DNA of 59,980 bases from an uncultured Ruminococcus sp. (GTDB lineage Bacteria > Bacillota > Clostridia > Oscillospirales > Ruminococcaceae): assembly GCA_902788785.1 (NCBI GenBank), contig CADALT010000019.1, positions 1-59,980 on the forward strand, read 5' to 3'. How positions within the stretch are numbered: the first letter of the stretch is position 1; every line of letters begins with the position of its first letter. This document shows positions 6,230 through 22,329 of this stretch, piece by piece. Position numbers and translations under genes: made by a program. The notes under the pieces are model-generated. The model was not told where the DNA came from and did not search any database. It was given only the letters and a program-made list of their open reading frames with translations.

Positions 6230-6499
6230 TCACTTTTTCCTTACCTTTTTTATCCTGAAATAATCCACCGTTACCCTTTCGGGTACATAGTCTACACCGC
6301 CAAGCGACCAGGGATTGCATCTTAACAATCTCCAGACCGTCAGCACAGTACCTTTTATTAAACCGTGTTTTTCATACGCATCCAGCGCATATGAAGAACA
6401 GCTCGGATAATACTTGCAGCTCGGCGGCAGCAGCGGACTTATGAATTTTCGATAAAACATTATCGGCAGCTTAGCTATCCATATGAATGGCGATCTCAT
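6230..6499 (-). CDS. yidD: Membrane protein insertion efficiency factor YidD
   Basis: Small (89-residue) YidD/HlyA-type protein that aids YidC-dependent insertion. Family hallmarks are visible: [20 protein letters not shown] with paired cysteines, the [10 protein letters not shown] stretch, and [17 protein letters not shown]. The start ATG at 6499 directly abuts the rnpA stop, so the two are translationally coupled, as in most bacteria. Confidence 0.95.
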
Positions 6500-6883
6500 C
6501 TATCTGCCCTTCTTCTTAGGCTTATCGAAAGCGCCTTTTTCGGCAGACTTGTTTATCTCACCGATCAGCCTTTCACTTATAAACCTCTCGATATCACAGC
6601 TGGTCCTTTCGGGCGCATCATTCCTCCCCACGAATACTATGTCGTATCCCATGGGCAGATCCTTCTCGCATGACCTGTATGCCGCCCTGACTATTCTTTT
6701 TACCCTGTTTCTCTTAACAGCATTGCCCAGCTTCTTGCCGGCTGTTATGCCCAGCCTGTTGAAGGGTGTGCCGTTAGGATAAAAATATGCACACACATAT
6801 CCGCATACTGCAAATCTGCCGCTGCGGTAGCATCTCTGGAAGACCTTATTGTCCTTTATGACTTGTGTGAACAGCATATCCAA
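6500..6883 (-). CDS. rnpA: Ribonuclease P protein component
   Basis: Protein subunit of RNase P, which assists the catalytic RNA in removing tRNA 5' leaders. The RNR signature is clear in KRNRVKRIVRAAYR, preceded by AGKKLGNAV. Length is 127 residues, typical. GGTGATTGGAT precedes the ATG at 6883. The gene is separated from rpmH by about 300 bases that hold a structured RNA, whereas in most Firmicutes the rpmH-rnpA gap is short. Confidence 0.95.
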   Translation of the reverse strand: MDMLFTQVIKDNKVFQRCYRSGRFAVCGYVCAYFYPNGTPFNRLGITAGKKLGNAVKRNRVKRIVRAAYRSCEKDLPMGYDIVFVGRNDAPERTSCDIERFISERLIGEINKSAEKGAFDKPKKKGR

Positions 6884-7050
6884 TCACCGTTATATCTCTA
6901 TAAGCTCTGAATATCGTCGTACAGTGTACCTTCTTTCGACGCTGTATGCGCCTTTCATGACTTTTTCACTGCCGCCCGACATAATATAAATATTTTTACA
7001 ATTTACCTCAATAAAAAGATAAAGACCTTATACCAAGCAAAAAACACTCC
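6884..7050. other. Intergenic, possible rnpA promoter
   Basis: No gene seen. On the minus strand a weak promoter-like pair occurs, TTGAGG then TATATT with a 17-base spacer, near 6981-7009, which could give rnpA its own transcript. A run of six T on the minus strand at 7039-7044 follows the hairpin described next. Confidence 0.3.
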
Positions 7051-7153
7051 ACAAAACGCTATTATCCAAAAGACCATCACAAAGCCTTACAAAATCCGAA
7101 CACGTCTGATTTTGCAGAGCTTGTACATATATGATCTTGCAATAGCGTTTCGT
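7051..7153 (-). ncRNA. Candidate structured RNA between rpmH and rnpA
   Basis: The region folds into one nested hairpin: 7051-7063 with 7141-7153 (13 pairs), 7070-7077 with 7131-7138 (8 pairs), 7079-7086 with 7118-7124 (7 pairs, one bulge) and 7089-7096 with 7108-7115 (8 pairs). Four positions are A-C mismatches if read as plus-strand RNA but become G-U pairs in minus-strand RNA, so the fold suits the rpmH transcript. A T6 run follows 6 bases after the stem. It may be an attenuator, a processing site or an independent RNA; I do not recognise a known family. Confidence 0.6.
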
Positions 7154-7189
7154 GTAAGACTGTTGCCGGTATACGGTCATTACTTTTCC

Positions 7190-7324
7190 TTAGTGACAAA
7201 GTTTTGCTCTGCCTCTTGCTCTTCTGCGTGCAAGTACCTTTCTGCCGTTGGAAGTAGACATTCTCTTTCTGAAGCCGTGGACCTTCTTTCTCTGAAGCTT
7301 CTTGGGCTGGTATGTTCTCTTCAT
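7190..7324 (-). CDS. rpmH: 50S ribosomal protein L34
   Basis: The 44-residue protein begins [18 protein letters not shown] and ends RGRAKLCH, an unmistakable bL34, a basic structural protein of the large ribosomal subunit. ATG at 7324 follows a CTCCT complement (7336-7340) that reads AGGAG on the coding strand. First gene of the leftward origin block. It is too short for many gene finders and lies within longer spurious frames on both strands. Confidence 0.98.
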
Positions 7325-7431
7325 CCTTATTCACTCTCCTTTTACACCGAGCAGCACCGCTCTAAAATTTCATTGGCACGTCCGAAACAGTAAAAATTAC
7401 CCGTTTTCAGACATAGCCCTTGTAATATAAC

Positions 7432-7461
7432 ATTATACCTTACTTACATATAGTTTGTCAA
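7432..7461 (-). promoter_or_regulatory. Promoter of rpmH operon
   Basis: Minus-strand TTGACA (7456-7461), an 18-base spacer and TATAAT (7432-7437), about 110 bases before the rpmH start. Confidence 0.75.
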
Positions 7462-7736
7462 GTCAGTTCACATTTTTTTTATATAATTTCTGATATTTAT
7501 TATTATTTACCTTATCAAACTTCAAACACCCACCCTTTTCCCCTGTTTTTTCGAGCTTTCCGTCACTCTCATCACTTCCGTTTGACCCGAATATCACCTC
7601 AATCATAGTCCATTATCCGAATAAAGTAAATTTTTTATTAATTTAACATAGCTTTTGCCTGCTGACTTCTCTTTTTCCCCCGAAATATTACTTATTTTAA
7701 CTTAATTTTCCCATACTATTATATATATAGGGGGTC
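7462..7736. other. AT-rich gap between divergent rpmH and dnaA
   Basis: No gene. It is a possible upstream half of a bipartite origin, but I find no 9-mer closer to a DnaA box than TTATCAAAC (7512-7520), so I do not call boxes here. Confidence 0.4.
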
Positions 7737-7765
7737 TTGAAATTTCAAGGGGAATGTGATATAAT
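7737..7765 (+). promoter_or_regulatory. Promoter of dnaA
   Basis: TTGAAA (7737-7742), 17-base spacer and TATAAT (7760-7765). The predicted leader of about 140 bases contains two small hairpins: 7845-7849 with 7857-7861, and 7866-7873 with 7879-7886 (one A-C mismatch), the second ending 12 bases before the ribosome site. They could tune dnaA translation; this is inference. Confidence 0.65.
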
Positions 7766-7914
7766 AAATTATATATTTGTGCCCATTTGTATATTTGGAA
7801 AAATATGTAATTTTATTATATATGAAGAATACCCGAAAGGTAAAGCCGTCAGGGATACGGCAGGGTGTACCGCAAGGTGCGGCACATCGGTAAGTTTAAG
7901 GAGGTTATATTTAG

Positions 7915-9300
7915 ATGAACTCATTCAATGAGGTTTTTGAGGAAGTATTGAAATACTGCTACCGTCTGGTCAATGACAAGACCACAGGCAGGGGTATAAG
8001 TGAGAGCGGTTATAACAGGTGGATAAAGGTACTCAAGCCCTATAAGCTTGAAAATAATACCGCCTATCTTCTGGCAGATACTGAGTTCGTTAAAGATACC
8101 ACCACACAGGCTTACGGTGATCTTCTTAATGCAGCTTTTGAGGAAGTCATGGGCTTCCCTATCGAAGTCAAGATAATGGTCAGTACCAAAGAGGAAGAAG
8201 TCAAGGACGAGAGGACTGTAAATGTACAGCCTGCGGATTTCTCCGAGGAGGCTAAGGACAGCTATACTTTCGAGAACTTTATCAAGGGCAGCTCAAATGA
8301 ACTTGCTTACGCTTTCTGTAAAGCAGTTGCCGATAAGTATGATAAAGAGATCAAGAGTGCTGAGGATATCGACCCAAATAAGGTCTTCAACCCCCTGATA
8401 ATCTACGGCGATTCGGGACTTGGCAAAACTCATCTGATGAAAGCCATCGAGAATGAGGTAAGCAGGAACCATCCCGAGCTGAAAATAATCTATACCACAG
8501 GCGAAAGCTTTATAAATGAACTGGTAAGAGCACTTGAATATAAGGATACCATAAGCTTCCATGAGAAGTACCGCAATGCAGACCTTCTGCTCGTGGACGA
8601 TATCCAGACCATTGCAGGCAAAGAGAGAATGCAGGAAGAATTTTTCCATACCTTCAACGATCTCTATAATGCAGGCAAACAGATCGTCCTCACATCCGAT
8701 GTGCTGCCTACCAAGATAACCAAACTCCAGGACAGGATAGCTACCAGACTCAGTCTCGGTGTACAGGCAGATGTAATGCCGCCCGATTTTGAGACCAGAA
8801 TGGCTATCGTCAACAGAAAAGCCGAGGGTCTTGATCTGAAGCTTTCAGATAGTGTAACAAGACTTATTGCAGAGAAGATAAAAGCAAATATCAGACAGCT
8901 TGAAGGTACCGTCAAGAAGATAAAGGCGCTCACTACCTTTACTAATGAGTCGCCCTCCGTATCCATGGCACAGCGTGTTATAAAGGAAGTTATGATATCC
9001 AATCAGCCTTCCGAGATAACCGTTGACAGGATAATCTCCGAGGTCGCAAATTCCTTCGATGTCACCGTGGAGGATATAAAGTCCAATCACAGACATTCAA
9101 ATATATCCATCGCACGTAAGATAACCATATATGTTCTTAAAGAAGTAAAGGGCATGACCTACACCCAGATAGGTGCCGCCCTCAACAAGAACCATTCTAC
9201 CATGACCATACACTACAGGGACGTGGAGAATATGCTTAGGAACAATAAGGAAATGAAAGATACTGTAAATGATATAATCAAAAATCTTAAAGAAAAGTAA
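7915..9300 (+). CDS. dnaA: Chromosomal replication initiator DnaA
   Basis: AAA+ initiator that binds DnaA boxes and melts the origin. Domain I/II covers about residues 1-110. The AAA+ domain carries Walker A GDSGLGKTH (about residues 164-172) and Walker B LLVDDIQ. C-terminal domain IV contains the DnaA signature around AALNKNHSTMTIHYRDVE, used for box recognition. 461 residues, normal. AAGGAGG at 7898-7904 sets the ATG at 7915. Divergent from rpmH and followed by the putative origin; DnaA normally represses its own promoter. Confidence 0.98.
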   Translation: MNSFNEVFEEVLKYCYRLVNDKTTGRGISESGYNRWIKVLKPYKLENNTAYLLADTEFVKDTTTQAYGDLLNAAFEEVMGFPIEVKIMVSTKEEEVKDERTVNVQPADFSEEAKDSYTFENFIKGSSNELAYAFCKAVADKYDKEIKSAEDIDPNKVFNPLIIYGDSGLGKTHLMKAIENEVSRNHPELKIIYTTGESFINELVRALEYKDTISFHEKYRNADLLLVDDIQTIAGKERMQEEFFHTFNDLYNAGKQIVLTSDVLPTKITKLQDRIATRLSLGVQADVMPPDFETRMAIVNRKAEGLDLKLSDSVTRLIAEKIKANIRQLEGTVKKIKALTTFTNESPSVSMAQRVIKEVMISNQPSEITVDRIISEVANSFDVTVEDIKSNHRHSNISIARKITIYVLKEVKGMTYTQIGAALNKNHSTMTIHYRDVENMLRNNKEMKDTVNDIIKNLKEK

Positions 9301-21366: not shown

Positions 21367-22293
21367 ATGCCAAATTGTCCCGAATGTAATTTTCCCTATG
21401 AAGAGGGTCAGAAATTCTGTAATACCTGCGGTACTAAACTGCCATCATTTATAAAGCAGAAGGTGTGCCCCGTATGCGGAAATACCCTGCTGGAAAATAC
21501 CAAGGTCTGCAATATCTGCGGCACTCCCGTTAACGTTCCGCAGGATACTACTGCTGCCGAGGAGATAGCCAAGCAGAAAGAAGCACTGGCAAACCCCACT
21601 ATGGATGAAATAGAGATACCCGAGATAACCGATGAGATGCTGGGTCTTACCGAGGAACCTGTGAAGACAGATGATATGCCTACTATGGATAGTATCTTTA
21701 TGCCGGGACAGGAACCTGCAAAGAAGCCCAAGCCCGTGGCAATAAGCAAGCCTGCACCTGCACAGCCCACTCCCATGCAGACTCCCAACGTACCACCCAC
21801 ACCACAGGTACAGCAGCCTTATCAGCAGACAAATCAGATGCCGCAAAATCAGTATCAGCAGCCTCAGATGGCTCAGAATACGGCACCTAATAATCAGTAT
21901 GTTCAGACTAATATGCCTGCACAGAATCAGATACCACAGCCTGTGATACAGCCCGGTGCAAATAACTATTCTCAGCCGCAGATGCAGCCTAATCAGGGCT
22001 TTGCGCAGAATAATATCCCGCAGAACAATATGCAGCAGAATAGTATCCCTATGAATAGTATCCCCCAGAACAACATACCCCAGGGTATGCCACGTAACGG
22101 CGCTAACGGACAGTCGGGTCAACCCGGCAAGAGTTTTAAAGACCTACTTCCGTTAATTCTCATAGGTGCAATAGTCCTTGTGATACTTATTGATGTGTTC
22201 GTGCTTTTCAGAAATCAGATCTTCGGAAATAAGGCGAACTCAAATGCATCGGTCATCACCATTGAGGACGATACAGTAAATTATATCGAATAA
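21367..22293 (+). CDS. Double zinc-ribbon, Gln/Pro/Asn-rich single-pass membrane protein
   Basis: Two zinc ribbons at the N-terminus (CPEC..CNTCG and CPVCG..CNICG, residues 4-55) are followed by an acidic stretch, a long low-complexity region rich in Gln, Pro and Asn (about residues 120-250), one membrane segment near residue 268 (LLPLILIGAIVLVILIDVFV) and about 30 external residues. The start is ATG 21367, 8 bases after AAAGGAG; an upstream TTG overlaps that ribosome site. 308 residues. No catalytic domain. Such ribbon-linker-anchor proteins are common but uncharacterised in Clostridia. Confidence 0.75.
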   Translation: MPNCPECNFPYEEGQKFCNTCGTKLPSFIKQKVCPVCGNTLLENTKVCNICGTPVNVPQDTTAAEEIAKQKEALANPTMDEIEIPEITDEMLGLTEEPVKTDDMPTMDSIFMPGQEPAKKPKPVAISKPAPAQPTPMQTPNVPPTPQVQQPYQQTNQMPQNQYQQPQMAQNTAPNNQYVQTNMPAQNQIPQPVIQPGANNYSQPQMQPNQGFAQNNIPQNNMQQNSIPMNSIPQNNIPQGMPRNGANGQSGQPGKSFKDLLPLILIGAIVLVILIDVFVLFRNQIFGNKANSNASVITIEDDTVNYIE

Positions 22294-22296
22294 TAC

Positions 22297-22329
22297 AAAA
22301 GCTCTTCGGTTTTTCCGAAGAGCTTTTTT
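22297..22329. terminator. Bidirectional terminator between zinc-ribbon gene and noc
   Basis: A 13-base-pair stem (22297-22309 with 22315-22327) around TTTTT, with T or A runs on both sides. Confidence 0.85.

Follow-up and report, generated by a model that had tools for sequence, protein, structure and literature searches.

The long hairpin which lies between rpmH and rnpA in the window (the whole 59,980-nt stretch of DNA analyzed here) very probably extends, in a lineage-specific manner, the loop of the intrinsic terminator ending the rpmH message. The hairpin is nested within a further stem followed by a U-run, this terminator is present in the genus genomes read, nearby genomes carry it with a short loop, and no other copy of the hairpin was found where searched. 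The first-pass annotation of this DNA had caught the inner part only, as the further stem and the U-run enclose the hairpin. The features of the region, all on the minus strand, are the following.

7432..7461, minus strand: sigma-70-type promoter consensus upstream of rpmH, TTGACA-18-TATAAT (consensus match only, 12/12)
7190..7324, minus strand: rpmH, ribosomal protein L34, 44 aa (ORF list)
7168..7178, minus strand: 5' arm of the outer stem, GACCGTATACC (pairing in the fold; arms found in relatives)
7050..7154, minus strand: self-folding, lineage-specific stretch in the terminator loop (fold z -6.32; single copy; absent from short-loop relatives)
7039..7044, minus strand: run of six T, possible weak inner terminator tail (crude script and sequence reading)
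7024..7034, minus strand: 3' arm of the outer stem, GGTATAAGGTC (pairing in the fold; arms found in relatives)
7013..7023, minus strand: terminator U-run, TTTATCTTTTT (identical run in 18 of 26 genus gaps)
6983..7011, minus strand: weak promoter-like site between the terminator and rnpA, TTGAGG-17-TATATT (9/12 consensus match)
6500..6883, minus strand: rnpA, RNase P protein, 127 codons from a TTG at 6883 (ORF list)

Genomic context

On the minus strand, rpmH (7324-7190) is followed by a 306-nt gap, by rnpA (6883-6500), and then by two genes which we take from their protein sequences to be yidD and yidC. What is presumably dnaA begins on the plus strand, at 7915 (ORF list). In the 25 other genus genomes read, rpmH is 84-94% and rnpA 53-83% identical to the genes of the window. 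When RnpA was compared, the nearest named records proved to be those of R. albus AR67, R. albus 8, R. albus KH2T6 and several Ruminococcus metagenome-assembled genomes (MAGs); judging by these matches, the window comes from a Ruminococcus belonging to the R. albus group. The rpmH-rnpA gap had been noticed as unusually long, and it is in fact the longest of the 26 genus gaps (range 84-306 nt), with the hairpin accounting for about 105 nt of it. Eleven promoter-like sites were found in the region, against 3.6 in shuffles; the one at 6983..7011 is therefore weak evidence of a promoter. Directly before rnpA, a 30-codon frame (ATGTCGGGCGGC... to TAA) runs on the minus strand at 6890-6982 and, judged by eye, is absent from the corresponding gap of a relative (G002).

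The inner hairpin

The hairpin is located at 7051-7153, on the strand of rpmH sense, as the first-pass annotation had stated. The minus-strand RNA (7153-7051) folds at -38.4 kcal/mol, compared with a mean of -20.2 (sd 2.88) for shuffled sequences (z -6.32, 0/200 as stable), and the plus strand of the same region at -22.3 kcal/mol (z -3.51, 1/200 shuffles). Stability of this order is not rare as such, as 21 of 4792 segments of 103 nt sampled in 25-nt steps on both strands of the 60 kb are equally stable, the hairpin itself counted; it is therefore notable for its stability given its composition and not for its raw energy.

The four helices described earlier are found in the minimum-energy fold, although with 15(+1), 8, 5+3 and 9(+2) pairs instead of 13, 8, 7 and 8. 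Under a strand-neutral pairing score, the arms comprise 38 Watson-Crick pairs, six pairs that are G-U on the minus strand, one A-C pair and one transversion. The strand-specific wobbles reported before thus do lie on the minus strand, at six sites and not four, and favor that strand for the hairpin, the 6:1 asymmetry not being significant alone (two-sided binomial p = 0.125). Five bases beyond the inner hairpin begins the run of six Ts, at a place where the short loops of two relatives, G002 and G019, have five Ts.

The enclosing terminator-like structure

The hairpin is wholly enclosed by the arms 7178-7168 and 7034-7024, in which GACC pairs with GGTC and TATACC with GGTATA, and the stretch from 7189 to 7013 is predicted to form a single structure of 71 pairs (-67.5 kcal/mol). 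As in intrinsic (Rho-independent) terminators, a G-C-containing stem stands directly before a U-run (TTTATCTTTTT) at the 3' end of a gene, and its position after the stop codon is kept in all of the 26 genus gaps read. It differs from them by its loop, which is not short but 133 nt long and itself a long hairpin. A short loop is a search setting or a typical value rather than a mechanistic requirement, hence the structure is a variant and not a standard member of this class.

A scan of the window for terminators with loops of 3-8 nt did not report the outer terminator. A scan allowing long loops gave two matches, the one at rpmH and one at 22217-22324 (plus strand), which was rejected as a false positive and adjoins an ordinary terminator. 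Ten shuffled windows gave 0 to 2 matches (mean 0.5); such chance matches make the pattern weak by itself, and the argument for a terminator rests on the relatives. TransTermHP as published searched for loops of 3-13 nt and stem-loops of up to 59 nt (PMC1852404), terminators mapped by Term-seq are reported with a median loop of 4 nt, and TERMITe has a loop limit of 20 nt (PMC12207403). These published finder settings would exclude the long-loop terminator of rpmH. Large structured-loop terminators lie beyond common finder settings, and such 3' ends, together with whatever RNA they may carry, may go unannotated.

The idea that the insert must fold on itself for the terminator to work was considered but found no support. 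When the insert was shuffled in silico, the outer stem closed equally well, with a mean pair probability of at least 0.9 in 198 of 200 cases (mean 0.98). Folding therefore does not show that the shape of the hairpin was required.

Distribution of the terminator in the genus

In the genus set, 29 genomes were searched, three of which gave no rpmH match, and the remaining 26 gaps were read directly. All 26 contain a terminator stem and U-run between rpmH and rnpA. The common stem-loop has GACC...GGTC closing GTATACC...GGTATA or a variant of it, followed by the U-run, which is TTTATCTTTTT in 18 genomes; the other eight carry CGACCTTTACC... and then GTTTTTAGTT. The stem is preserved despite sequence change, as illustrated by TATAGGG/CCCTATA in G007 against TATACC/GGTATA in the window. 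The direct reading replaced a crude terminator finder run on 68 gaps (duplicate loci L134 and L135 dropped), which reported loops of more than 40 nt in 14 gaps, several through wrong pairings, and chose the inner hairpin for the window; that finder was used only for the inner T-run.

A stem-loop of 36-49 nt is found in 21 of the 26 genomes, and one of 155-162 nt in the other five, namely the window and four members of an R. albus clade: G027 (KH2T6), G005 (AR67), G012 (MAG RUI259) and G022. Between the inner arms, the loop measures 27 nt in G002, G019 and G028 (the last being more distant), 28 nt in G023 (R. albus 8) and G024, 133 nt in the window, and 139-140 nt in the four long-loop R. albus-clade genomes. 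In a tree built from RnpA, YidD, YidC, DnaA and RpmH pieces (28 genomes, 795 columns, LG+G4; DnaA missing from some), the window falls outside the clade holding both the short-loop genomes G002, G019, G023 and G024 and the long-loop genomes G027, G005, G012 and G022 (support 96), and is placed as its sister (85). The long loop is probably derived rather than ancestral. One gain and one loss would require as many events as two gains. We lean, without proof, toward two separate gains, because a loss would need to bring back a 27-nt loop resembling the one in G028.

The stretch was also considered as a small gene. An ATG at 7180, with AGGAAAAG directly upstream, does open a 50-codon frame across the insert (7180-7028). 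The same ATG in eight relatives opens frames of 24, 24, 25, 27, 24, 24, 8 and 52 codons, which diverge past the first few residues, and G028 has no ATG there, so that a coding function is extremely improbable.

Search for homologs of the hairpin

The hairpin had been presented as what a conserved functional RNA would show, with a lack of conservation in relatives named among the outcomes which would speak against it, and that lack is what the comparison revealed. In 60 relatives (28 of the genus, 8 of the family and 24 of the order), matches were obtained in nine only, 17-31 nt long and with E 0.016 or worse, i.e., at chance level, and G002 and G019 have their 27-nt loop instead. A conserved functional RNA is thus not supported for the hairpin of the window. 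The Rfam search proposed at the same time brought no family to threshold for the hairpin: Rfam 15 gave no gathering match over the whole window and, with E up to 5 across 6400-8000, only a sub-threshold algC match at 7397-7436, outside the hairpin. A tRNA or tmRNA identity was likewise rejected. The titles and abstract openings returned by a literature search do not describe the element, which is not to claim that it is absent from print.

Within its own genome (90.6% complete), the hairpin is single copy, the ten other matches being 14-22 nt long with E 0.8 or worse. There was no match in plasmids or phages at E 0.01, and none in viral contigs to one exact 23-base word of the hairpin. Bacterial MITEs and REP-like palindromes are short palindromic elements, and the extension could be the remnant of such a mobile element which landed in the loop: it is also short and palindromic, has terminal inverted repeats (CACAAAACGCTATT / AATAGCGTTTCGTG, plus strand), is confined to one lineage, and lies in a loop which is enlarged in another clade as well. 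Elements of this kind are expected in several copies, though, and neither another copy in the genome nor a convincing relative in the 60 genomes, the plasmids, the phages or, for the 23-base word, the viral contigs was found. Moreover, comparison by eye with the short G002 loop shows no target-site duplication, and the pairing spans most of the element and not just its ends. A mobile origin is accordingly improbable.

The loop insert of the R. albus clade

The insert of G027, G005, G012 and G022 occupies the same position in the loop as the hairpin of the window and is of similar length, but its predicted fold is different, being branched around a three-way junction, and is conserved in the four genomes. 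Between G027 and G022, the insert is 83% identical (114/138), compared with 60% at four-fold sites of rnpA (26/43; Fisher p 0.006). The 70-nt core containing the three-way-junction fold (loci L012, L013, L016 and L017) is 91% identical (64/70), and, as read from the aligned letters, four of its six differences fall in the terminal loops, of which there are two, a fifth is at the junction, and the sixth changes G-U to G-C. For the same two genomes, the dnaA-rpmH gap is 56% identical overall, with six 60-column blocks at 26-43% and the three nearer rpmH at 78-96%. Rfam gave no match for the core (L012 and L016 scanned, E up to 5).

These figures suggest that the R. albus-clade insert is constrained and that structured loop cargo may matter. 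The insert is a more interesting lead than the hairpin of the window itself and, since it occurs in named strains, offers a directly testable case. The core is, however, not significantly more conserved than the spacer between terminator and rnpA (84%, 66/79; p 0.22). RNAalifold on the four sequences predicts 60 pairs, none of which is changed on both sides; four are changed on one side and kept as pairs, and four are broken or gapped in one of the four sequences. On these alignments, the support for the structure is conservation only.

It may be asked if the two inserts are diverged copies of one ancestral element, the loop extension then being a functional structured RNA, either an rpmH-rnpA regulatory module or a small RNA derived from the 3' UTR. 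Both inserts occupy one and the same point in the loop, the clade insert has the conservation described above at a locus where identity over most of the dnaA-rpmH gap is no higher than chance, and global alignments of the window insert with G027, G005 and G012 exceed shuffles (z 3.0, 2.8 and 2.5; 0, 2 and 3 of 500 shuffles as good). As these three genomes are close kin, their scores are nearly one observation, and neither the global alignment with G022 (z 0.3) nor any local alignment with the four clade inserts rises above chance.

Covariance models point the same way. R1, built on the whole structure of the four clade sequences, gives 46.7 bits for the window and 51.1 and 50.8 bits for the short-loop terminators of G019 and G002; as short-loop terminators score no lower than the window, the window insert adds nothing. 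R2, built on the insert only, gives 7.3 bits on the window (E 0.085). Over 396 family genomes and under stricter filters, R2 gave weak matches in 11 other genomes, the best with a per-genome E of 0.0014; they were read as chance, and only G027 of the four clade genomes was among the matches listed. There is no convincing link by sequence or model, and we lean toward the two inserts being unrelated. Together with the lack of two-sided changes in all 60 pairs and the conservation of the neighboring spacer, this leaves a functional RNA shared through common ancestry unlikely. A broader idea is speculative and somewhat less probable still, namely that structured RNA cargo has landed repeatedly in the loop of the Ruminococcus rpmH terminator, which would then host a separate functional RNA (either a regulatory small RNA or a sensor tuning read-through into rnpA). 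On this view, the clade's three-way junction would be a conserved undescribed RNA and the hairpin of the window its sister-lineage counterpart.

In G027, G012 and G005, a gene starting MEKRYELTAAQKMHYRW is found (L194, L195 and L196, respectively), whose early codons are complementary to 19 nt of the G027 and G005 inserts. The exact 19-mer is absent from the inserts of G012, which has the gene, and of G022. With a per-genome E of about 8e-4, this complementarity may indicate a small RNA target or be due to chance.

Proposed mechanism and comparison with other genera

A mechanism can be proposed for the hairpin as an extension of the terminator loop. RNA polymerase that has started at the rpmH promoter would first produce the inner hairpin, after which the outer stem (7178-7168 with 7034-7024) would close over it and the U-run (7023-7013) would release the transcript. 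Expression of rnpA would then likely proceed via read-through and/or the weak downstream promoter. The extension leaves the arms and the U-run intact and would end the rpmH mRNA in a long double-stranded stretch that may slow decay from the 3' side or serve as a substrate for RNase III. The rpmH-rnpA pair links the supply of ribosomes and of RNase P, and a changed terminator could shift their balance. The resemblance of the entire structure to an rpmH terminator makes a role in the ratio of L34 to RNase P protein plausible.

In other genera, several of the genomes examined by eye have a short rpmH-rnpA terminator (e.g., GACCACA...TGTGGTC and a U-run) at the same place and on the same strand, and further ones have almost no rpmH-rnpA gap. 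Compared with these short terminators, it is the very long loop that sets apart the window and four more of the 26 genus genomes.

Other structured rpmH-rnpA gaps

Eight Ruminococcus genomes (L019, L020, L022, L025, L027, L028, L030 and L033) carry about 115-160 nt of extra structured 3' UTR from the rpmH stop codon to the terminator. Common to these regions are a GGGGTA...GGT stretch and a hairpin with three pairs that are changed on both sides in some genomes. The version present in G006 occurs in one copy each in four of the 29 genus genomes. Finally, in another family of the order (G073, L169), a 300-nt rpmH-rnpA gap is predicted to fold at -121 kcal/mol, largely as one long hairpin.
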